Assembly (NCBI GenBank): GCA_016218825.1
Contig: JACRCV010000116.1
Coordinates: forward strand, 1-64,000
DNA from: Deltaproteobacteria bacterium
GTDB lineage: Bacteria > Myxococcota > XYA12-FULL-58-9
Direction: 5' to 3'
Length of the DNA: 64,000 bases
The number at the start of each line of letters is the position of its first letter. Within the stretch, counting starts at the first letter, position 1. Shown here one piece after another: positions 24,060 through 35,180 of this stretch. The translations under genes were made by a program, and so were the position numbers. A model generated the notes under the pieces. It saw nothing but the letters and a program-made list of their open reading frames with translations, ran no database searches and had not been told where the DNA came from.

Positions 24060-24656
24060 ATGAGTGAGGCGTTGCGCTCGGCGATCGCCGACCTCGAGCT
24101 CGAAGACCCGGACCGGGTGGTCGGTCTGCTCGCGGCCCATTGGGCGCTCGTCAAGACGTGGAACGAGAGGGTCAACCTCACTTCGATCCTCGACGACGGT
24201 GAAGCGGCGTGGCTCCATTATCGCGACAGTCTGGAGGCGCTCCGGGTTTTGGTTCCCGGCGAGGTGGTCGATCTCGGGTCGGGGGCGGGGTATCCGGGGA
24301 TTCCCCTCGCGATCGCAGAGCCGGGTCGTCGGGTGACGCTGGTTGAGCCGCGGCGCAAGCGGGCGTCGTTTCTGGAGACCGTTGCGGCGCGGCTTGGGCT
24401 TTCGAACGTGGTCGTGGTGGTGGGGCGCTCGGACGACGAGCCGGCGGTGCGGGCGGCGAACGTGGTGACGCGGGCGACGTTCTCGGGGGTGGCCGAGCTC
24501 ACGGCCTGCAAGAAGTGGCTGGCACCTCACGGGGCACCTCACGGGCAGCTCATCGCGTATCGCTCGGCGGCGAGTGGGGATCCGGCGTCGCGGGTGCATC
24601 GTTACGGCCTTCGTGGCGAGCAGCGCATACTCGAGATCTGGACCTCCGTGAGCTGA
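24060..24656 (+). CDS. rsmG: 16S rRNA (guanine-527 N7) methyltransferase RsmG
   Basis: SAM-dependent methyltransferase for 16S rRNA G527 (E. coli numbering). 198 residues. Features: WNERVNLTS near residue 37, the SAM-binding motif [18 protein letters not shown], then [13 protein letters not shown], and the C-terminal [10 protein letters not shown] region where most homologues have 'l....lkpgG'. GAGGAG precedes the ATG. The last two residues and the TGA stop come from repeat copy 5, which starts at 24648. The predicted C-terminus ([11 protein letters not shown]) still aligns with the family's 'ger.l.vi' end, so function should be kept. Confidence 0.94.
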
Positions 24657-24746
24657 TCGTTCCGCGCCCTTTCTTGCGTTCCTCGCGCTCGCGGCTTCGC
24701 CTCCGCTGCAGCACCGGCGGGCGCGACCTTGTTTCCAGGTTCTCGC
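24648..24746 (+). repeat. Palindromic element, copy 5 (99 nt)
   Basis: Same ends as the other copies (GTGAGCTGATCG on the left). The core differs by a 2-nt deletion and a few substitutions around 24700-24715, removing the KpnI-like GGTACC present in the other four. The left end overlaps the rsmG stop codon. Confidence 0.82.
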
Positions 24747-24748
24747 AG

Positions 24749-24813
24749 AGAAGTGCCGCAAAGAAGTGGCCGCAAAGAAGTGGCTGGCACCTCATCGGGG
24801 CACCTCATCGGGG
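24749..24813. repeat. Short tandem repeats and partial duplication of rsmG 3' sequence
   Basis: Immediately after copy 5 there are about three units of AAGAAGTGGCCGCA-like sequence, followed at 24775-24813 by a near-copy of rsmG positions 24511-24546 (AAGAAGTGGCTGGCACCTCA, then a direct repeat of GGGGCACCTCA with an extra T). The copies lie on both sides of the repeat element. This suggests slippage or recombination associated with its insertion. Confidence 0.7.
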
Positions 24814-24918
24814 GGAGGAGCCCGTCTCGAAGGGCGCTCTTTGCTCGCTCTTTGGCCTTGGCAACCTGTCAGGGTTCTGATCTATTGTCGCTCGGTTCCG
24901 GCCGATTGGAGGATGCAG

Positions 24919-25692
24919 ATGGCGAGAATCGTCGCGGTGGCGAATCAAAAGGGCGGCGTCGGCAAGACGACGACGGCGGTCAACCTGGCGGCAGCGGTCG
25001 CCGCGGCCGAGAAGAAAGTCCTCCTCGTCGACCTCGACCCGCAAGCGAACGCGACGAGCGGCCTCGGCGTCGAAGCTCAACCCCTCGACCAAAGCATCTA
25101 CGCCGCCCTCCTCGGGGAAAAGCCCATCGGCGAGCTCCGCCGCAACACCGAGCTCGCGACCCTCCAGGTCGTGCCGAGCGGCCCCGACCTCTACGGCGCC
25201 GAGGTCGAGCTGGTGATGCGTGAAGATCGCTTCGCCCTGCTGAAGAACGCCCTCGCCCCCATCCAAGATGACTACGACACCATCATCATCGACTGCCCGC
25301 CGTCCCTCGGCATCCTGACGCTGAACTCGCTGTGCGCCGCCGGCTCCGTCCTCATCCCGATGCAGTGCGAGTACTACGCCCTCGAAGGCCTGAGCCAGCT
25401 GATGCGCACCGTCGAGATGGTCCGCGCCGGGATGAACCCGAGCCTCGACATCGAAGGCGTGCTGTTGACGATGTTCGACAGCCGCAACAACCTCGCCCGC
25501 CAGGTGGCCGACGACGTCCGCCAGAACTTCGGCGGCAAGGTGTTCACCGCCGTCATCCCGCGCAACGTCAAGCTCTCCGAGGCCCCGAGCTTCGGCAAGC
25601 CCGTCATCCTCTACGACATCGCCTCGCGCGGCTGTCAGAGCTACATCGAGCTGGCGCGCGAGTTCTTGGACGGCACCGCCCGCGCCGCCTGA
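24919..25692 (+). CDS. parA: Chromosome-partitioning ATPase ParA (Soj)
   Basis: Deviant-Walker ATPase that forms nucleoid-bound dimers and moves ParB-parS complexes. 257 residues. Deviant Walker A KGGVGKTT lies near residues 11-18; Walker A' VLLVDLDPQ and Walker [10 protein letters not shown] follow. Two ATGs compete: GGAGG at 24908-24912 abuts 24913 but is spaced 6 nt from 24919, which also gives the canonical [13 protein letters not shown] start. parB follows after 45 nt, and parS lies upstream of rsmG. Confidence 0.96.
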
Positions 25693-25737
25693 TCTCCGAC
25701 AATCTATTCAATGTAATCGTTCGTACCGGAGCTGGTG

Positions 25738-26604
<867 letters not shown>

Positions 26605-26715: not shown

Positions 26716-27996
26716 TTACGGGTTCGCGGGCTTGGCGGCGCCGGGGTAGTCGCCGAGCTGCAGCTTCAGCGGGTCGATCTTACCCTTGCCGTCCTTGCAG
26801 CCCGCGGCGTACTCGAACGCGTAGGGCGCGCCCCAGTTCCCGGCGGCGTCGTGGTACGTGAGGATCAAGGGGTCGCCGTCCTCGAGGTAACTGAGCTTCA
26901 GCGCGACGTCGCGCGTGCCGGCGCCGAGCGAGCCGCTGAAGGTCTCGCCGGTGCGACTGTTCTGCAGCATGAACGTCACCCCCGGCTCGAAGGCGCGCAG
27001 CAAGTTCAAGAACAGGCTCTTGTCGTTGGTCTTCACCTCCGTGTAGTCCGGGAGGCCGACGATGCCGTCGCGCCGGTCGCCGTACGCGGCGTAGTCGAAG
27101 CGCTTGAACAGCGCGCCGTCACTCGCGGCGAGCTTGGCGAACGCGTTGCGCAGCGGCTCCGGGATCGTTTGGTCTTCGGCGAGCTTCTTCGCCTCCTCGA
27201 GGTTGAAGCTGTCCCTGCCGAGCTTGCTCTTGAAGATGGCGACGTTGGCGCAGAGCGCGTCGGCCACCGCGCGGTCTTCGGCCGACCACTTCATCGTCAA
27301 CACCTTGACGTTGCTCTTGGCGACCTGGGGCGCGTCCTTGTCCTGCACCGCGATGCCCAAAAGCTGCTGGGTCGCCGCGCTGCTCGGGGCGCCGTTCGGA
27401 CCGGTGACGCCGACGAGGATGTCGAGCGGGGCGCCGCTCAAGACGACCTGCTGCCCCTGGTCGTTCGACTGCATCACCCGCTGGTTCGCCCAGCCGGAGG
27501 GGTCGAGGTAGACGTAGATGCCGTCCGAGGCGTTGCCCTTGCGGTCCACCTGGCGCAGCACGAGTCGCTCGCCGGGCTGGAAGCCCTTGTCGGCCATCTG
27601 CTTGGGGTCGAGCACGATGGTGGCGCGACGGTTGCCGACGTCGTAGCCCACCATGTCGAGGCGGCGCACGTCGCCTTTGGTGCCGAAGTCGGCGTCGGGC
27701 TTGTCGGTCAAGCTGATGAACTCGAAGTGCGCGCCGACCTCGATGTTGTCGAGCACGATCAACACCGGGTCGCGCGGCCGCGGCGAGACGACCGGGGCCG
27801 GCGGCGGGTTCGGGATCAACTTGGCGTCGGCCTTCGCGGGGTCGAAGCAGATGGCGCGCACCAGCCGCGGCGTCGGCGCCGGGGTCTTGTCGGAGGACTG
27901 ACAACCGTCCACGCACTGGCCCTGCTGCATCTGGCAACGGTCGTCGTCGTTCGTGCAGGTCCCGGCTCCCAGGGGCTGGATGATCAGGTCTGGCAT
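26716..27996 (-). CDS. Unrecognised 426-aa protein, Cys-rich N-terminus
   Basis: I do not recognise a family. The N-terminus carries four Cys in 19 residues (14, 21, 28, 32), then a Pro-rich stretch (~60-75) and several probable beta-sandwich segments with Ig-like or C2-like character (PVLIVLDNIEVGAHFEF; GERLVLRQVDRKGN; LKLSYLEDGDPLILTYHDAA). There is no signal peptide or membrane segment. The start is the ATG at 27996, preceded by GGGAGA. It is in the same direction as the caspase/anti-sigma/sigma genes, 164 nt downstream of the caspase-like gene, so read-through is possible. A structural or substrate-binding protein fits better than an enzyme, but this is a guess. Confidence 0.7.
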   Translation of the reverse strand: MPDLIIQPLGAGTCTNDDDRCQMQQGQCVDGCQSSDKTPAPTPRLVRAICFDPAKADAKLIPNPPPAPVVSPRPRDPVLIVLDNIEVGAHFEFISLTDKPDADFGTKGDVRRLDMVGYDVGNRRATIVLDPKQMADKGFQPGERLVLRQVDRKGNASDGIYVYLDPSGWANQRVMQSNDQGQQVVLSGAPLDILVGVTGPNGAPSSAATQQLLGIAVQDKDAPQVAKSNVKVLTMKWSAEDRAVADALCANVAIFKSKLGRDSFNLEEAKKLAEDQTIPEPLRNAFAKLAASDGALFKRFDYAAYGDRRDGIVGLPDYTEVKTNDKSLFLNLLRAFEPGVTFMLQNSRTGETFSGSLGAGTRDVALKLSYLEDGDPLILTYHDAAGNWGAPYAFEYAAGCKDGKGKIDPLKLQLGDYPGAAKPANP

Positions 27997-28160
27997 GGCT
28001 GTCTCCCGGCGGCTCGCGCCTGTTGTGTTGTTGTTCCGCTGACACCACGGTTGTCGGCGGCCCGCGGGGGCGGTCTTCGATCGGCGGGGACAGAATGGGA
28101 CATGGTTCCCATTCTGCGATCGGGCAGGGCCCGCGCTGCCCCGAAGGTGCCGGTTCGGCT

Positions 28161-30083
28161 TTAGAATCCGATCGAGACGCCCGCCAGGGCGCCGCCGTGC
28201 AGCGGCGTCAGACTCGGCGCGACGCTGAGCGCGGGCGTGGCGGGCTCTTCGCCGTTGTGGCCGGATTGGTAGAGCTCCCAGGTGCGCTCGACCGGGTAGC
28301 GGAAGGCCGTGAGCGTGTAGATCCCCAACCCCAGATACGCCAGCCCCGCAACACCAGCCATCGCCGGCAACCCTTCGAAGCGGCGCTCGCGATACGCCAT
28401 GATCCCGGCCAAGCCGCCAAAGGCCGCCGCTTCGACGAGCAGGGCGGCGCCCGCGAGAGCCCGGGTCTTGCGCCACTCCGTCGCGATCTCTGCGAACTTC
28501 GTGCGCGACTGCACGAACTGACGGGTGCGGACCTCCTCGGACGAGTCCACGGCGCCTGCGAAGTCGGCGGCCAGGGCCTCGCTCTCACTCGGCACCAACA
28601 TCGCGACCGTACCCGCCACCACCACCGCCGCGCCGGCGCCGGCGAGCACCCAGGACGTCCGGCGGTCCGTGTCCCAAAGGTTTCGAGCCGCCGTCTCCTT
28701 CTGGGTCGGCCGGATCGCCCACGCCATCCCACCGACAACGCCGCCGAGCAGCACCAACAGCCCGCCACTCACCACCCGCGAGTCCCTCGAGAATGACGCC
28801 GCGGTGTTCAGGTGTAGCTGCAACGTCTCCACGTCGCGCACGCTAACACCATAATATTCCTCATTCTTCTTTTCGCGTTCCGCCACGTACCGGGTCACCG
28901 CCGCGGGGCCGAAGGCGTCGGCGAACAGGCTCTCGAAGACCGGCGCCTCGCCGCGGCTCGCGAACGCCGGTGGCTGTTCTGGAAGGTCCGTCAGGGTCAG
29001 GACGTCTGGCCCGAGCTCGAGCTCGCGCACCGTGGTGACCGGCCTCTCGCCCGGCACGGTCTCGTAGAGGGCGAGCCCGGCCGCGTGGCGCGGCAAGTAG
29101 AGGTCGACCGGACTGCCCGCGGCGTTGTGGACGTCGGCGAGGCGGACCCCGAGGCGGTCGCGCACGGTCAGGCGTCGCGAGCTCGTCCCGGGCACCGCGA
29201 GGTGGCGCGCGCCCTCGCCGCCGAGCGTCAGCAACGCGACCTGGTCGTCTTTGCCGGGGGCCTGCGCGAACACCTTGGGGCGGTAGAGGTCGTTCGGCAC
29301 CGGCCGGCTGGCGGTGGCGATGAACGCCGCCATCTCCGCGTAGCTGACGCTGCCGTCGTGGTCGGCGTCGGCGGCGCCGCGCAGCCCGGAGCGCAAGATG
29401 TAGCTGAAGATGCCCGACTGCAGCTCGCTCCATTCGTAGGTCACCGCCTCGGCGCTGGTGGAGATCACGGCCCCCAACCCCGGGTACTTGGCGAGCAGCG
29501 ACTGCGACGGGTCGACGCGGACCTCGAAGCGCTTGGCCGACGACTGGCGCGGGTTCAGCACGAAGTACGAGTTGCAGCTGTCGAGGATCAAATGCACCCG
29601 CGCCGCGGGCAAGCGCGCCAACACCCGCAGGTCCAGCGCCCGCGCCCCGAGCGGCCCGTCCGCGAGCTCGAGGTAGCCCTGGCCGTTCTCGACGTCGCCG
29701 TGCGCCGCGAACGCCAGGTAGAGGCTGACGCCGTGACCCTGCTTCATCTCGGCGTCGAGGCGCGCTGCGAGCGCGGCGACCGCCTGGTCGAGGTTCGCGA
29801 GCGTCGGCGCGGCGATGCGCGGCTGCCACTCGGGGTAGAGCGGCGCGCTCTCGGCGTCGAGCTCGGTGAGCAGCGTCACGTGGTCGGCGCCGAAGGCGTC
29901 GGCGAACAGCTCGGCGTACTTGACGCCGTCGTCGTCGGCGTAGTGCAAATCCGGGCGATGCAGCTTGGCGCTGCGGTTGTTGGTGACCACGAGCGCGTAG
30001 CCGCGCACCGGCTCGGTCGGGAGGGGCTCGGCGCCGGTGGCGGCGATGACGGCGAGAGTGGCGAGAGTGGCGAGCGGCAGCAT
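28161..30083 (-). CDS. Caspase-like (peptidase C14) membrane protein
   Basis: A 640-residue protein. A signal-like hydrophobic start (to ~18) is followed by a caspase fold carrying the catalytic dyad: His128 in LAFAAHGD and Cys170 in LILDSCNS. An EF-hand-like loop D239-A-D-H-D-G-S is at 239-245. After a charged middle region, four hydrophobic segments between ~445 and 600 should anchor the C-terminus in the membrane. Caspase homologues cleave after basic or acidic residues; the target is unknown. GAGGAGA precedes the ATG. It is third in an operon ECF sigma, anti-sigma, caspase (12 nt after the anti-sigma stop), linking it to envelope or stress signalling. The EF-hand suggests calcium control, as in metacaspases; this is inferred. 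Confidence 0.85.
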   Translation of the reverse strand: MLPLATLATLAVIAATGAEPLPTEPVRGYALVVTNNRSAKLHRPDLHYADDDGVKYAELFADAFGADHVTLLTELDAESAPLYPEWQPRIAAPTLANLDQAVAALAARLDAEMKQGHGVSLYLAFAAHGDVENGQGYLELADGPLGARALDLRVLARLPAARVHLILDSCNSYFVLNPRQSSAKRFEVRVDPSQSLLAKYPGLGAVISTSAEAVTYEWSELQSGIFSYILRSGLRGAADADHDGSVSYAEMAAFIATASRPVPNDLYRPKVFAQAPGKDDQVALLTLGGEGARHLAVPGTSSRRLTVRDRLGVRLADVHNAAGSPVDLYLPRHAAGLALYETVPGERPVTTVRELELGPDVLTLTDLPEQPPAFASRGEAPVFESLFADAFGPAAVTRYVAEREKKNEEYYGVSVRDVETLQLHLNTAASFSRDSRVVSGGLLVLLGGVVGGMAWAIRPTQKETAARNLWDTDRRTSWVLAGAGAAVVVAGTVAMLVPSESEALAADFAGAVDSSEEVRTRQFVQSRTKFAEIATEWRKTRALAGAALLVEAAAFGGLAGIMAYRERRFEGLPAMAGVAGLAYLGLGIYTLTAFRYPVERTWELYQSGHNGEEPATPALSVAPSLTPLHGGALAGVSIGF

Positions 30084-30095
30084 TCTATCTCCTCG

Positions 30096-30875
30096 TCAGC
30101 GGCTGTGGGTCTCTACGACGACGGCGAGGCGCTGGATCTTGATGGCCGCCGCGGCCCCGTCGAGGGCGGTCACGCCGCGGCGCGTGATCTCGGCGACCAG
30201 CTCCGGCCGGGCGCGATCGAGAAACACCGCGACGACCTCGAACGCCCCCGGCGCCGCTCCTTCGAGGCTGACGCCCTCGGGCACGTCGACGACGCCCGGC
30301 CCCGCATCGAGCCCGAGCGGCGCCCGGTCGACGCTCTCGGGAAAGAACCAATGCACCGCGCCGGCGGCGTCGACGCCGAAGAGCAACACCACGCCGCCGA
30401 TGCCGGCGCGATTGATCACCGCGAAGCTCAGGCCGTCTCCGACCGCGACCCGGTCGCCGAGGTGCAGCAAAGAGCGGGTCGTCGGGTCGCTCGCTACGTG
30501 GCGATAGACCTCGACGCCCAAGAGCTGCGCCACGCTCGCGCTCGCGCCGCGGGCGGTGAGCTCGCCGGGCACCGAGGTCTCGCGGCCCTGGAGGACCAGC
30601 ACCAGCGCGGCGGTAGCCACGGCGCCGAAAAGGGCCCATACCCCGGGCCGGAGCGCCGGGCGTTCCGGTTGCAGGCGCCTCAGGACGTCGGCGGTGAAGG
30701 AGGGATCGGGCGCGGCCGCGAGCAGTCGCAGGCGCAAGGCGGTGTTCACGAGGTCGGCGTGGGCCTGATGGCACGCGCCGCAGACCCCCAGGTGGCGCTC
30801 GAGCGCGCGCGCCTGGTTCGCGGTGGTCTCGCCGTCGACGTGGGCCGCGAGGGCGGTGGGGTCAGGGCAGGTCAT
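30096..30875 (-). CDS. Zinc-finger anti-sigma factor with DUF4384-like C-terminus
   Basis: A 259-residue membrane-bound regulator. The N-terminal zf-HC2 motif is H28-x3-C32-x2-C35 with Cys3, the form that holds ECF sigma factors inactive. One transmembrane helix lies at about 79-97. The outer part ends in a beta-rich domain resembling DUF4384 (AVHWFFPES followed by 'G.VDVPEGVSLEGA'), often found with caspase-like proteins. The start ATG at 30875 has GAGGAGGT upstream, and its first 14 nt overlap the sigma gene, implying translational coupling. It probably responds to a periplasmic signal and releases the sigma factor. Confidence 0.85.
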   Translation of the reverse strand: MTCPDPTALAAHVDGETTANQARALERHLGVCGACHQAHADLVNTALRLRLLAAAPDPSFTADVLRRLQPERPALRPGVWALFGAVATAALVLVLQGRETSVPGELTARGASASVAQLLGVEVYRHVASDPTTRSLLHLGDRVAVGDGLSFAVINRAGIGGVVLLFGVDAAGAVHWFFPESVDRAPLGLDAGPGVVDVPEGVSLEGAAPGAFEVVAVFLDRARPELVAEITRRGVTALDGAAAAIKIQRLAVVVETHSR

Positions 30876-31458
30876 GGCGGACCTCCTCGGGCAACAGCGC
30901 GGCGAGCGCTCGGAGCCCATAGTGCACGCGCGACCGCGCCGCCGACGGCGTGCGGCCGATCACCGCGGCGATGGCGTCGTAGTCGAGGCCTTCGAAGAAG
31001 CGCAAGAACAGCGGCACCCGGAACTTGTCGTCGAGCTTGGCGAGCGCCACGGTCACCAGTCGCCGGACCTCGAGGTCGGCGGCGTCGACCTCGGCCGGGG
31101 CCGGGAGCAAGTCGGTCGCGCTCTCCTCGTTGGTGACGAGCGAGCGCCAGAAGCGGCGTCTGCGGATCGAGCGGCAGCGGTTGCGAGCGATGGTGAGCAC
31201 GAGCTGCTTGAGCTTGCCCTGCGGCCGATACGACCGGCGCGCCCGCCACAGCCGCAAGAACACGTCCTGGGCGGCCTCGCGCGCCAACCCCGCGTCACCG
31301 AGCAACAGGGCGCAGAACGCCCGCACCTGCGCCTCGTGACGGGTGACGAGCGTTGCGAAGGCCCGGCTGTCTTCGGCCGCGGCGAGCATCAGATAGTCGT
31401 CGGAGGTCGTGGTGAGCGACGCGCTCGCTGCGACGACCTCGAGATGGGGACGAGTCAT
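30862..31458 (-). CDS. ECF-type RNA polymerase sigma factor
   Basis: A 198-residue group IV sigma factor. Region 2 (AFATLVTRHEAQVRAFCALL to AREAAQDVFLRLWR) recognises -10 elements, and region 4 (RVPLFLRFFEGLDYDAIAAV followed by IGRTPSAARSRVHYGLRAL) recognises -35 elements. AGGTAGGA precedes the ATG. It heads the anti-sigma/caspase operon. ECF systems are usually autoregulated, so the 240 nt between 31459 and 31700 should carry an ECF-type promoter, though I could not identify a second matching site to define it. Confidence 0.9.
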   Translation of the reverse strand: MTRPHLEVVAASASLTTTSDDYLMLAAAEDSRAFATLVTRHEAQVRAFCALLLGDAGLAREAAQDVFLRLWRARRSYRPQGKLKQLVLTIARNRCRSIRRRRFWRSLVTNEESATDLLPAPAEVDAADLEVRRLVTVALAKLDDKFRVPLFLRFFEGLDYDAIAAVIGRTPSAARSRVHYGLRALAALLPEEVRHDLP

Positions 31459-31700
31459 TGTCCTACCTAACGCCGCCGGTCGGATTCTGTTGAAGGCCGG
31501 TGGCTGTTTTTTGCGACCGTCGCGGCGCGCCCGGGCCGGTACGGTATCAGCGTGGCTCGGCGTCGGATAGACCGCGCCCCGCGGCCGTCGATGTCGGTTC
31601 TTCCTTGTTCAGAGGCGGTGCGCTGCGATAGGCGTGGCCTGCGTCGCGAGATCTCCCGCGGCCTCGACTGCAGCGCATTGCAGGCGTCGCAGAGGTTCTG

Positions 31701-34076
31701 ATGACAACTCACGTGTTTGTGAAGTATGCGATTCCTGTCTCTTTGATCTGCGCGCTGGCGGCGGTTGGCTGCGGCAAGAGCGCCGACACCGACGGCGGCG
31801 GAACCCCAACGCCGCCCAAGTGCACGGAGGCCGACTGCGCCGACGCCAATCCATGCACGCTCGACATCTGTGAGCCCGCCGTCGGCTGCCGTCACGACGG
31901 GACCGGCGTAACCCTCGGCTGCGACGACGGCAATGCCTGCACGACCGGCGACGCCTGCCGGGGAGACGTGATCGGCACCTGCGCGGGGACCGACACCTCG
32001 GCGGTGGACTGTGACGACCAGAATGGGTGCACGACCGACAGCTGTGCGCCGGCGACCGGCTGCGCTCACGACGGCACCGGGGTGACCACGGGTTGCGACG
32101 ACGGCAACGCCTGCACCACGGCCGACGCGTGTCAGGGGGACGTGGCGGGCTCTTGTGCGGGCGTCGACACCTCGGCGGTGGATTGCGACGACGGCAGCGA
32201 CTGCACGGCCGACAGCTGTGACGTCGACGCCGGCTGTGGTCACGCTCTCGTGGTGTCGCTCAGGTGTCGGCCGCAGATCGTGGTCGACTACCCGCCGCGC
32301 GCCGCGACGATTCAGGGGACGACACCGGTGGCCGTGACCGGAAGGGTGACGAGCGGCAACGGCGCGATCTCGGTGTTGACGATCAACGGCCAGGAGGTCG
32401 GCGTCGACCCGGAAACCGGCGCGTTTTCGTTCGACTTCGCGGCCACGGTCGGCGCCAACGTCCTCGAGCTCGCCGCCACCGACGCGGCTGCGGTGAGCGC
32501 GTCGCGGCTGCAGGCGTTTCATCTGTCGGCGGACTATCGGCTGCCGGACGTGGCGGCACCGGGGTCGGGGGCGATCGATCTCGGCGCCGCCGTCTGGTTG
32601 GCGCAAGCGTCGATCGACGACGGCCAGGCGCCGCCGCCGGTGGACCTCGCGGCGATCGTCGAGTACGTGCTCGCCAATCTCGATCTCAACTCCCTGGTCG
32701 ACAGCAGCGCGCCGCTCGCGTCAACGGCCGGCTTCGACATCTACTACGTCTCCGACCTGGCCATCGGCGGCACCGCCAGCTCGCTCGCGGCGATCGACGG
32801 CGGTCTGCACCTGGTCGCCAGCTTGACCTCCTTGACCGGTGGCCTGGTCTTCGATTGTCCGTGCAGCGGCGCCACCTGTGGGTGTTGGTTTGCCGGCGGC
32901 GACTCGACCGGCGGTTGGCGCATCGACGCTATCGTCGTCGAGGCCGATCTCCTGATCGGTGTCGCCAGCGACCACTCGTTGACGATCACCGCGCTGAACA
33001 CGACGAGCGCGGTCAGCGGCTTCGACGCCTGGTCCAACAACAGCTGGACGAACTTCCTCATCTCGATCATCAAGCCCTTCATCATGGGCGGGCTCGTGGC
33101 CGACCTCGAGAGTACCCTGGAAAGTCAGCTGACGGTCAGCCTGCCCGGGGTGATCGTCGGGGTCTTGAGCGAGCTGGCCGCGCCTCGGGCCCTTGCGGTC
33201 ACGCGTTTGGACGGCGCCCTCGATCCCGGCACCAGCCAGCCGATCACGGTCGGCGTGACCCTGGCCGGCGACTTCTCGCTCACCGAGTTCGGCGACGCGG
33301 CGCCGGGGCCCCAGGGCGGGGTGTTCGGGATGCGCGCCTGGGCGACCACGGCTGCGGCGGGCGTGCCGGTCGGGGCGCCGTGGGACGCCAACCTCGGGGT
33401 GCCGCTGCGGACGGGGTGCGGCGCGGGCCCGCAGGCGCTGGTGGTGCCCGAGTTGGCGTCGGCCGAAGAGGTGTACGCCGACGATGTGTTGAATGAGGTG
33501 TTGCGGGCGGCGTGGTGGGGCGGATGGTTGGAGCAGCCGGTGCAGCTCGCCGACCTGCCGGCGACCGAGCTCGCCGCGGCGGGGATTACGAGCTTCGTCG
33601 GGACTCTGAGCGGTTGGCTGCCGCCGCTGTTGAGTGACTGCGCCGCCGGAGAGCTGCGGTTCTACGTCGGTGACCTGCGGCTCGACGCGACGGTGGAGAT
33701 CGAGGGTCAGACCGTCAACGTGGTCTCGTGGGCGTCGTTCGACGCGCCGGCCACGCTGCGCGCGACGGTCACCGGGCTCGAGGTGGTGCTGGGGGTGCCC
33801 GAGCACGTGCAGGTGGGCCTCGACGTGGCGCAGGACGACCAGCTCGGTCACGAAGGGGCGCTCGCGGAGTCGTGGCGGACCGTCATCGTGCCGGCGCTGG
33901 TGACGCGAGCCGGGTCGGGTCAACCTGTCGTCGTGGTGCCGCACTTCGAGATCGACGTGAGCGCGGCTTTGGGTCAAGCGCCCGGCACCACCTTGATGCG
34001 TCCGGTGCCGCTGGCGACGCCGCCGGCGTCGGAGCGTCAGGCCGGCAACACCGTGAGCTACAGCGAGCTACAATAG
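31701..34076 (+). CDS. Large lipoprotein with Cys-rich repeats and a lipid-binding-like domain
   Basis: A 791-residue lipoprotein with lipobox AVGC near residue 24. Residues ~35-190 are Cys-rich repeats of the myxobacterial 'CDDGNACTT.DAC' kind; a ~58-residue unit occurs twice almost exactly (CDDGNACTTGDACRGDVIG and CDDGNACTTADACQGDVAG). Next comes an Ig-like segment (~200-275), then a long region with amphipathic alpha/beta sequence (for example FLISIIKPFIMGGLVADLES) that resembles tubular lipid-binding folds; that last assignment is weak. It has no close neighbours in the same operon except the next Cys-rich lipoprotein, 39 nt away. Confidence 0.72.
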   Translation: MTTHVFVKYAIPVSLICALAAVGCGKSADTDGGGTPTPPKCTEADCADANPCTLDICEPAVGCRHDGTGVTLGCDDGNACTTGDACRGDVIGTCAGTDTSAVDCDDQNGCTTDSCAPATGCAHDGTGVTTGCDDGNACTTADACQGDVAGSCAGVDTSAVDCDDGSDCTADSCDVDAGCGHALVVSLRCRPQIVVDYPPRAATIQGTTPVAVTGRVTSGNGAISVLTINGQEVGVDPETGAFSFDFAATVGANVLELAATDAAAVSASRLQAFHLSADYRLPDVAAPGSGAIDLGAAVWLAQASIDDGQAPPPVDLAAIVEYVLANLDLNSLVDSSAPLASTAGFDIYYVSDLAIGGTASSLAAIDGGLHLVASLTSLTGGLVFDCPCSGATCGCWFAGGDSTGGWRIDAIVVEADLLIGVASDHSLTITALNTTSAVSGFDAWSNNSWTNFLISIIKPFIMGGLVADLESTLESQLTVSLPGVIVGVLSELAAPRALAVTRLDGALDPGTSQPITVGVTLAGDFSLTEFGDAAPGPQGGVFGMRAWATTAAAGVPVGAPWDANLGVPLRTGCGAGPQALVVPELASAEEVYADDVLNEVLRAAWWGGWLEQPVQLADLPATELAAAGITSFVGTLSGWLPPLLSDCAAGELRFYVGDLRLDATVEIEGQTVNVVSWASFDAPATLRATVTGLEVVLGVPEHVQVGLDVAQDDQLGHEGALAESWRTVIVPALVTRAGSGQPVVVVPHFEIDVSAALGQAPGTTLMRPVPLATPPASERQAGNTVSYSELQ

Positions 34077-34115
34077 TTGCCAACGAGGCGCCAGCCGAGC
34101 GATAGTCCGGTCCCC

Positions 34116-35180
34116 ATGAAGCACCACGTCTTGGCCGTTCTATTCGGGTTGGGAGTGCTCGCCGGCGCGGGGTGCAGCTCGCCGAGCGCCGGCGACGGGT
34201 GTGCGACCGACGAGGACTGTGATCTCGGCTTCTCGTGCATCGAGGGCGGCTGTCGGTGTCGGACCAACGATGCTTGCGGGGTGGGGCAGTACTGCAACCC
34301 GTTCGGTGCTTGTCAGCCGCGGCCGCCTTGTCTGGGGAACCAGGACTGCAAGACCGGTGAGATCTGCGACTCGTCCGACGTCCGCACCGGCGGCTCGTGC
34401 ATCCCCGCGAGCCAATGCGGCTCCAGCCTCCACTGCCCGTTCGACAGCTACTGCAGCAAGCCCGACAACATCCAACCGGGCACCTGCCAACCCGGCTGCC
34501 GCTCCACCGGCGACTGCCGGCTCGGCGAGGTCTGCACCGGGGGCACCTGCACCAACGGCGGCACCGCGAGCGACTGCACCCTGTGCCCCGCGACCCCGGT
34601 CCCGGACGCCAGCTTCTGCGACTACGGCGAGCGCTGCACCAACCAGGGCCAGTGTCAGGCGTTCCCCGAGCAGACCACGGTGTGCGCCACCTGCAGTCAG
34701 TTTCAGCAGTGCGCGGGCAGCAACACCGTCTGCCTCCTCGACGAGGACGTCGCCGGCGCCGAGTACTGCGCGCCGAAGTGTCTGCTCGACGCCGACTGCC
34801 CGAACGGCTACGAGGAGTCCGGGTGTGGCAAGCTGATCCTCGTCGACCCGTCGACCGAGTGCAGCCAGAGTCGCCACTGCGCCAACGGCGCGCCGTGCAT
34901 CGTCCGCCCGGAGTCCGCCACCGCGTACTGCGGCTGCGTGTCGGACAGCGAATGCACCAGCGGCCTGTCGCCCACCTGCGACACCTACTTCACGCACACC
35001 TGCATGAACTCGGGGATGCCGTGCACCACCGACGCCGAGTGCGGCGTCGCCTGCGTCCAGGTGCCCTACGGCAGCGGCACCGCCGGCGTTTGTGAAACCG
35101 CGGTCGGCGGCTGCGGCAAGAACCCGGGCTTCACCTGCAACACCCTCAAGGCTTCCACCGCCGAGTGCCGCCGATTCTAG
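34116..35180 (+). CDS. Cys-rich surface lipoprotein
   Basis: A 354-residue lipoprotein, leader MKHHVLAVLFGLGVLAGAGC with Cys20 as the acylation site. More than 30 cysteines are spread through short repeated units of the form 'C..D.DC..G..C....C', as in other myxobacterial Cys-rich extracellular proteins; all are likely in disulfides. There is no enzyme signature. The ATG at 34116 is chosen because it opens the signal peptide; an in-frame upstream Met would add 13 charged residues. It follows the preceding Cys-rich lipoprotein by 39 nt, so the pair is probably co-expressed on the cell surface. Confidence 0.75.
   Translation: MKHHVLAVLFGLGVLAGAGCSSPSAGDGCATDEDCDLGFSCIEGGCRCRTNDACGVGQYCNPFGACQPRPPCLGNQDCKTGEICDSSDVRTGGSCIPASQCGSSLHCPFDSYCSKPDNIQPGTCQPGCRSTGDCRLGEVCTGGTCTNGGTASDCTLCPATPVPDASFCDYGERCTNQGQCQAFPEQTTVCATCSQFQQCAGSNTVCLLDEDVAGAEYCAPKCLLDADCPNGYEESGCGKLILVDPSTECSQSRHCANGAPCIVRPESATAYCGCVSDSECTSGLSPTCDTYFTHTCMNSGMPCTTDAECGVACVQVPYGSGTAGVCETAVGGCGKNPGFTCNTLKASTAECRRF

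Follow-up and report, generated by a model that had tools for sequence, protein, structure and literature searches.

What does a caspase-like protease do in an operon with a sigma factor and its anti-sigma factor? The question is raised by positions 28,161 to 31,458 of a 64,000-nucleotide stretch of a Myxococcota genome (assembly GCA_016218825.1, contig JACRCV010000116.1, positions 1 to 64,000; hereafter the window). Genes for an extracytoplasmic function (ECF) sigma factor, an anti-sigma factor and a caspase-like protease follow each other tightly in this order on the minus strand. With an anti-sigma start at 30875, the sigma and anti-sigma genes share 14 bases; 12 bases separate the anti-sigma from the caspase gene. 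A sequence-only reading of this DNA had offered two answers: the sigma factor controls a cell-death or proteolytic protein, or the anti-sigma factor is a substrate of the caspase. With moderate confidence we favour the second in a more specific form: the caspase would be a dedicated site-1 protease of the envelope, cutting the anti-sigma factor after Arg109 and releasing a sigma factor that re-induces its own operon.

The candidate bond lies in the juxtamembrane linker of the anti-sigma factor. The caspase loci provided 80 caspase-linked anti-sigma proteins, after dropping the truncated L070 and leaving out L065, a fused frame. The linker is poorly conserved except for the column of Arg109, the most conserved of the aligned region, with arginine in 67, lysine in 12 and methionine in one protein. 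The following residue is glycine (64), serine (12), alanine (3) or aspartate (1), and three positions before Arg109 stands Phe, Trp, Leu, Val or Ile in 76 proteins. On the caspase tree, the Arg109 column changed 6 times and the following column 10 times; the other linker columns changed 28–57 times. The distance of the basic residue to the window of the transmembrane (TM) helix is 7–29 residues in 79/80.

The strict form of the motif around Arg109 was present in 73 of the 80 proteins versus 1/16 control proteins. The controls were zinc-finger TM proteins from related genomes in loci without a caspase of the window type; 30 loci gave 16 usable proteins, with 13 lacking a TM helix by rule and one locus being short. 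Reading one strand only, the motif occurred in 1/11 controls. A hold-out set comprised 40 loci from genomes with no previously used loci. It had the catalytic dyad motifs and the anti-sigma gene in 40/40 and the sigma gene in 39, the other being cut by a contig edge. The strict motif was found in 38, among them L250 at another place; L258 fits a looser pattern only, and L269, read in the wrong frame or at the wrong TM helix, counts as a miss. The hold-out is only partly independent, because 36 of its loci belong to one family (f13) that is also in the first set. These counts bear on an explanation we consider very improbable, that the caspase is co-transcribed but otherwise unrelated, and that Arg-Gly is either a recognition site of some housekeeping protease or the boundary of the ectodomain fold. 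The difference between caspase-linked and control proteins speaks against it, as does the position of Arg109 outside the fold, in a stretch with a predicted local distance difference test (pLDDT) below 50.

A basic residue before the bond suits the enzyme class. Metacaspases cut behind Arg or Lys, a basic P1 preference also found in orthocaspases, as described in passages of PMC7475262 and PMC6426788. The latter also describes the acidic P1-pocket residues of TbMC2, Asp95 and Asp211, as conserved in pseudo-orthocaspases. Asp168 of the window protease occupies the position of TbMC2 Asp211, two before the catalytic cysteine.

The window caspase itself had no Pfam Peptidase_C14 match at E ≤ 1; 32 of 50 aligned family members matched at E ≤ 0.01. 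It is too diverged for the Pfam family on its own. Its AlphaFold2 model (mean pLDDT 88, predicted template modelling score 0.82) superimposes with legumain (Z 18.8, 235 aligned residues, 3.1 Å) and metacaspase-4 (Z 18.3, 227 aligned residues, 3.5 Å). Foldseek ranked the MALT1 paracaspase, Ig domain included, first (E 4.8e-6). Judged by the model, the protease has the caspase fold of clan CD (C14). Conservation was read from 86 caspases; of the 80 regions L031 to L110, this set leaves out L107 and L110, where phmmer found no caspase. The L107 caspase was picked up later by a profile and is still outside this set, and weaker caspase matches from the search of relatives are mostly outside the locus set. 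Two loci are duplicates (L112 of L032, L117 of L066). Besides the dyad, Asp168 and Glu217 are invariant (86/86), and the acidic D50–D52 is conserved in the family. The EF-hand-like loop reads D239-x-D241-x-D243-G-x-V-x-x-x-E250, with D239 in 86/86, Asp or Asn at 241 in 86/86 and at 243 in 84/86, and E250 in 86/86. The caspase profile matches EF-hand proteins, at best with E = 8.5e-5. Hydrophobic stretches cover residues 437–455, 479–497 and 543–561, and the model has a fourth helix at 572–592.

The sequence-only reading fared well on these features. It had numbered His128 and Cys170 correctly, and a dyad varying among orthologues, which it had named as grounds for refutation, was not found. 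Its EF-hand-like loop is borne out by conservation, flanking model helices and profile matches, and its probable membrane anchors agree with the three hydrophobic stretches and the fourth helix. It did not mention the signal-peptide-like N terminus of the protease; a simple hydrophobicity rule called such a stretch in 80/85 caspases. The caspase domain therefore probably lies on the outer side of the cytoplasmic membrane. The anti-sigma ectodomain should be there too, and the candidate cleavage site is predicted to face the same compartment. The C-terminal end of distant caspases of the window genome (L106, L107, L108 and L204) looks by eye like an outer-membrane barrel instead of TM helices.

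The anti-sigma factor has the architecture of a zinc-binding, membrane-held inhibitor: an N-terminal zf-HC2 domain carrying HxxxCxxC is followed by a TM helix, and its gene adjoins the sigma gene. The AlphaFold2 model (mean pLDDT 86) consists of the zinc-finger domain, a TM helix at 77–96, the linker and a beta sandwich. The ectodomain was structurally closest to 7ptp (Z 9.6, 115 aligned residues, 2.6 Å), with many sandwich folds tied within about 1 and none singled out. It is weakly DUF4384-like (E = 0.12 for the window protein; 3/45 family members at E ≤ 0.01). The anti-sigma profile also weakly matches PDB chain 8rot, named a CHAT domain-containing protein (E 0.0014), on which a literature search gave nothing. 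The sigma factor is of the ECF type, being short and having sigma regions 2 and 4 only. Table 1 gives the coordinates.

Table 1. Features of the sigma/anti-sigma/caspase operon in the window.
Feature	Position	Strand	Basis
Caspase-like protease, 640 aa, predicted exported and membrane-anchored	28161..30083	-	Conservation, hydropathy, Peptidase_C14 matches of relatives, AlphaFold2 model
C-terminal helical membrane region (predicted), residues 415-592	28308..28841	-	Hydropathy and model
EF-hand-like loop, residues 239-250	29334..29369	-	Between model helices 225-237 and 248-259
Catalytic Cys170 codon	29574..29576	-	C in 86/86
Catalytic His128 codon	29700..29702	-	H in 86/86
Anti-sigma factor, 259 aa: zinc-finger domain, one TM helix, linker, Ig-like ectodomain	30096..30875	-	zf-HC2 27.0 bits versus cut-off 22.2
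Anti-sigma ectodomain, residues 115-255, beta sandwich	30111..30533	-	AlphaFold2 model
Candidate cleavage motif L106-T-A-R109-G110, juxtamembrane linker	30546..30560	-	Column conservation; model pLDDT <50 at 100-111
Anti-sigma TM helix, residues 77-95	30591..30647	-	Hydropathy; helix 77-96 in model
ECF sigma factor, 198 aa	30862..31458	-	Pfam Sigma70_r2 44.6 bits, Sigma70_r4_2 33.1 bits; TIGR02937 sigma70-ECF; all over cut-off
Promoter-like site TTCAAC-N15-GCGTTA	31468..31494	-	Ends 9 bases before sigma start codon

The promoter-like site points to a sigma factor acting on its own operon. The leader would be very short, given the distance of the site to the start codon. The same sequence stands before the sigma gene in the window, L031 and L113. 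In two genomes of the host genus (G000 and G001) it occurs exactly once each, both times before the sigma gene of a window-type operon, and the reversed pattern used as control gave 0. Judging from the sequence, the sigma factor may autoregulate the operon, and its transcription probably includes the caspase gene. The signal from a generic promoter pattern, AAC-N15-17-CGT, was too weak (10/54 versus 4.3 in shuffles). A wider sigma regulon was rejected; there was one exact site per genome, and near-match counts gave no sign of it in G001, while any excess in G000 was small.

The operon is widespread. The caspase was present in 39 of the 58 relatives searched and, in a profile search with a strict limit, in 92/146 genomes of the phylum. 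Searches for plasmid relatives with two queries gave none at E ≤ 0.001. Single-sequence phmmer overlooked many sigma and anti-sigma genes, and profiles built from the first matches were searched instead. Among the 86 caspase loci, all from Myxococcota, the three genes are contiguous in 57. Variant arrangements account for 16: in 10 of them the sigma gene is separated from the anti-sigma-like gene by an extra gene or a gap, and 6 are divergent. The remaining loci comprise 5 anti-sigma/caspase pairs cut by a contig edge, 2 with an anti-sigma-like gene without sigma, 1 distant and 5 other cases. Start and stop codons overlap by 4 bases for anti-sigma and caspase in 45/75 and for sigma and anti-sigma in 37/75. 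The three genes of the window were where the sequence-only reading had placed them, with overlapping sigma and anti-sigma genes before the caspase-like gene, and the search for conserved synteny that it had proposed gave a strong co-occurrence, whose absence it had named as another ground for refutation. Two loci have fused frames. In L118 (4241-5911), sigma and the apparent anti-sigma start share one open frame ending at the caspase start. On a short draft contig, L065 (1608-3833), a single open frame encodes both the anti-sigma ectodomain, with the linker DDFQARGQ, and the caspase, possibly owing to an assembly error.

The window genome had 15 matches to the anti-sigma profile. Seven are near full length and all of these lie near a caspase of the window family, one being divergent from its caspase at a distance of about 2.3 kb. 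The remaining 8 align to the zinc-finger half only. The genome holds seven paralogous anti-sigma/caspase systems, the others being in L204, L205, L035, L106, L107 and L108. The sequence read for the L108 copy begins at a contig edge and showed no sigma gene. This multiplicity is relevant to a stress-induced death or lysis effector, in which the sigma factor would induce an envelope caspase acting destructively on many substrates, while a separate site-1 protease would free sigma from the anti-sigma factor. The promoter-like site would suit such an effector, and the survey of Asplund-Samuelsson et al. (2012, PMC3501461) contains the proposal of a possible autolysis role for myxobacterial metacaspases. 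Seven systems in one genome look more like parallel signal systems; besides, the anti-sigma factor diverges in step with the caspase, and the linker motif tracks the presence of the caspase. We regard the effector as rather unlikely, slightly more so than the inhibitory binding discussed below. Co-divergence was quantified for sigma and caspase in 54 of the 57 contiguous loci (without L068, L080 and L084). Pairwise distances correlated with r 0.73, a value reached by 0/2000 permutations. Shuffling labels only among paralogues of the same genome gave a mean r of 0.33 and a maximum of 0.59, and again 0/2000 reached 0.73. The operon therefore behaves as a unit.

Several points weigh against cleavage of the anti-sigma factor by the caspase. 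The distance correlation is no proof of interaction, because linked genes co-inherit. Methionine replaces the basic residue in one protein (L105), and in one protein P1' is aspartate. Against solved metacaspases and a relative from Geobacter, the caspase profile aligns in the surroundings of His and Cys only (E 0.005–0.06). D50–D52 is presumably equivalent to TbMC2 Asp95, an assignment not based on a residue alignment. HxxxCxxC is lacking in the first 90 residues of 31/75 caspase-adjacent proteins, some of them truncated or over-long frames, which makes an anti-sigma role less sure for these. For the caspase homologues in L037, L081 and L115, no sigma or anti-sigma gene was found within about 6 kb upstream. 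On the promoter side, a looser pattern present in 11/54 sigma upstream regions versus a mean of 0.32 (maximum 3) in shuffles was devised after inspecting the sequences. With one mismatch allowed, G001 has 27 sites versus 25 for the reversed control, no clear excess, and G000 has 8 versus 2, a small excess.

Arg/Lys-Gly may also be an inhibitory (pseudo-substrate) or docking element in place of a cut bond. The anti-sigma ectodomain and its linker would then bind and inhibit the caspase, which would be the output of a system whose sigma factor is freed otherwise. Conserved P1, P1' and P4 positions suit binding as well as cleavage, and the motif is retained even when a protein lacks the zinc-binding residues and at loci where no sigma gene was found nearby. 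A link between ectodomain and protease is consistent with the single frame in L065 and with DUF4384, which PMC7475262 and PMC6426788 report in parts among the accessory domains of orthocaspases. A mere binding element need not sit in a predicted disordered linker at a varying distance from the membrane, and the alternation of Arg and Lys suits the rule of an S1 pocket. We consider such binding unlikely, and cleavage remains our preferred reading.

Cleavage would proceed in several steps. The zinc-finger domain of the anti-sigma factor would hold the ECF sigma factor at the membrane, with the ectodomain outside the cytoplasmic membrane. The caspase would be exported, anchored by its C-terminal helices and activated, possibly by Ca2+ via the EF-hand loop or by an envelope signal. 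The active enzyme would cut the linker at Arg109-Gly110, not far from the outer face of the membrane. Degradation of the anti-sigma factor would be completed by a general site-2 protease, sigma would be released, and the freed sigma would transcribe sigma, anti-sigma and caspase in a positive loop. Topology in the cell, cleavage, the order of events, calcium control and autoregulation are what we infer here from sequence and models. The gene identities, the synteny, the conservation of dyad and EF loop, the near-invariant Arg/Lys and the promoter-like site were observed by computation. Relative to the sequence-only reading, cleavage of the anti-sigma factor has gained the shared predicted compartment, the near-invariant Arg/Lys-Gly/Ser in a disordered linker and the hold-out. 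Its other answer, control of a cell-death or proteolytic protein by sigma, stays plausible because the caspase gene is probably transcribed by sigma as well; the evidence touches on cell death at most indirectly.

More tentatively, the model may extend to the phylum. Exported caspases might act there as dedicated site-1 proteases on their cognate anti-sigma factors at hydrophobic-x-x-Arg/Lys-Gly outside the membrane, in several parallel copies per genome and with each sigma factor switching on mainly its own operon. They would be signal transducers, not killers.

Two divergent cysteine-rich lipoprotein-like genes lie upstream of the operon (31701-35180, plus strand), one with Dictyostelium (Dicty_CTDC) repeats. 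They are not a conserved part of the system, because only one similar protein (L074) was found near the other loci examined. Cysteine-rich lipoproteins also occur within the operons of L079, L099, L100 and L101, between sigma and the anti-sigma-like gene. The downstream gene (open reading frame 26716-28476, protein from 27999) was rejected as a part of the system; it matched only itself among the loci searched. Open reading frames resembling rsmG, parA and parB (24060-26604, plus strand) after an mnmG-like one were recognised by eye and suggest that the window is near the replication origin.

Operons of a sigma-70 factor and a metacaspase are already in print. The 2012 survey (PMC3501461) lists them for Myxococcus (four of them in M. 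xanthus), Anaeromyxobacter, Haliangium and Sorangium, and also for Ralstonia and Fibrobacter. As in the window, these operons combine a metacaspase-type gene with one for a sigma-70 factor. The term 'anti-sigma' is absent from the main text of the survey, and the part on operons proposes no topology, linker site or mechanism. Full-text literature searches gave no paper in which a caspase homologue cuts a zinc-finger anti-sigma factor; the neighbourhood may be listed in the main ECF classification paper. New here are the near-invariant linker Arg/Lys and the model of anti-sigma cleavage. The roles and targets of bacterial caspase homologues are largely open, and the window family comes with predictions of a natural substrate and of the bond to be cut, as well as with a transcriptional read-out. 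If the model is true, the role of the caspase would be signalling, not death, with a possible calcium control in the envelope.

Three other known systems come close. In Craspase (Cas7-11-Csx29, Csx30 and CASP-sigma of type III-E CRISPR), as outlined in PMC10028731, a caspase-like (CHAT) protease cuts the inhibitor of an ECF-like sigma factor, as is proposed here. There, the protease is an RNA-activated TPR-CHAT protein and acts on Csx30, whereas the window has a predicted exported membrane protease and a zinc-finger anti-sigma factor with one TM helix. For TPR or CHAT domains, the window caspase had no Pfam match at E ≤ 1, which is an absence of a match only. Protease genes beside an ECF sigma gene are also described for ECF54, in the part of PMC8999054 dealing with its CHAT and subtilase neighbours. 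The E. coli sigmaE/RseA/DegS/RseP system, as summarised in PMC8103513, likewise has a membrane anti-sigma factor with an ectodomain; the first cut there is outside the membrane, as proposed for the window. Its site-1 protease DegS is an HtrA-family PDZ serine protease, in contrast to the cysteine protease encoded in the window operon itself, which has a caspase fold in the model. If cleavage is confirmed, proteolysis of the caspase type would stand beside the HtrA-type site-1 proteases as a route to releasing membrane-held ECF sigma factors.

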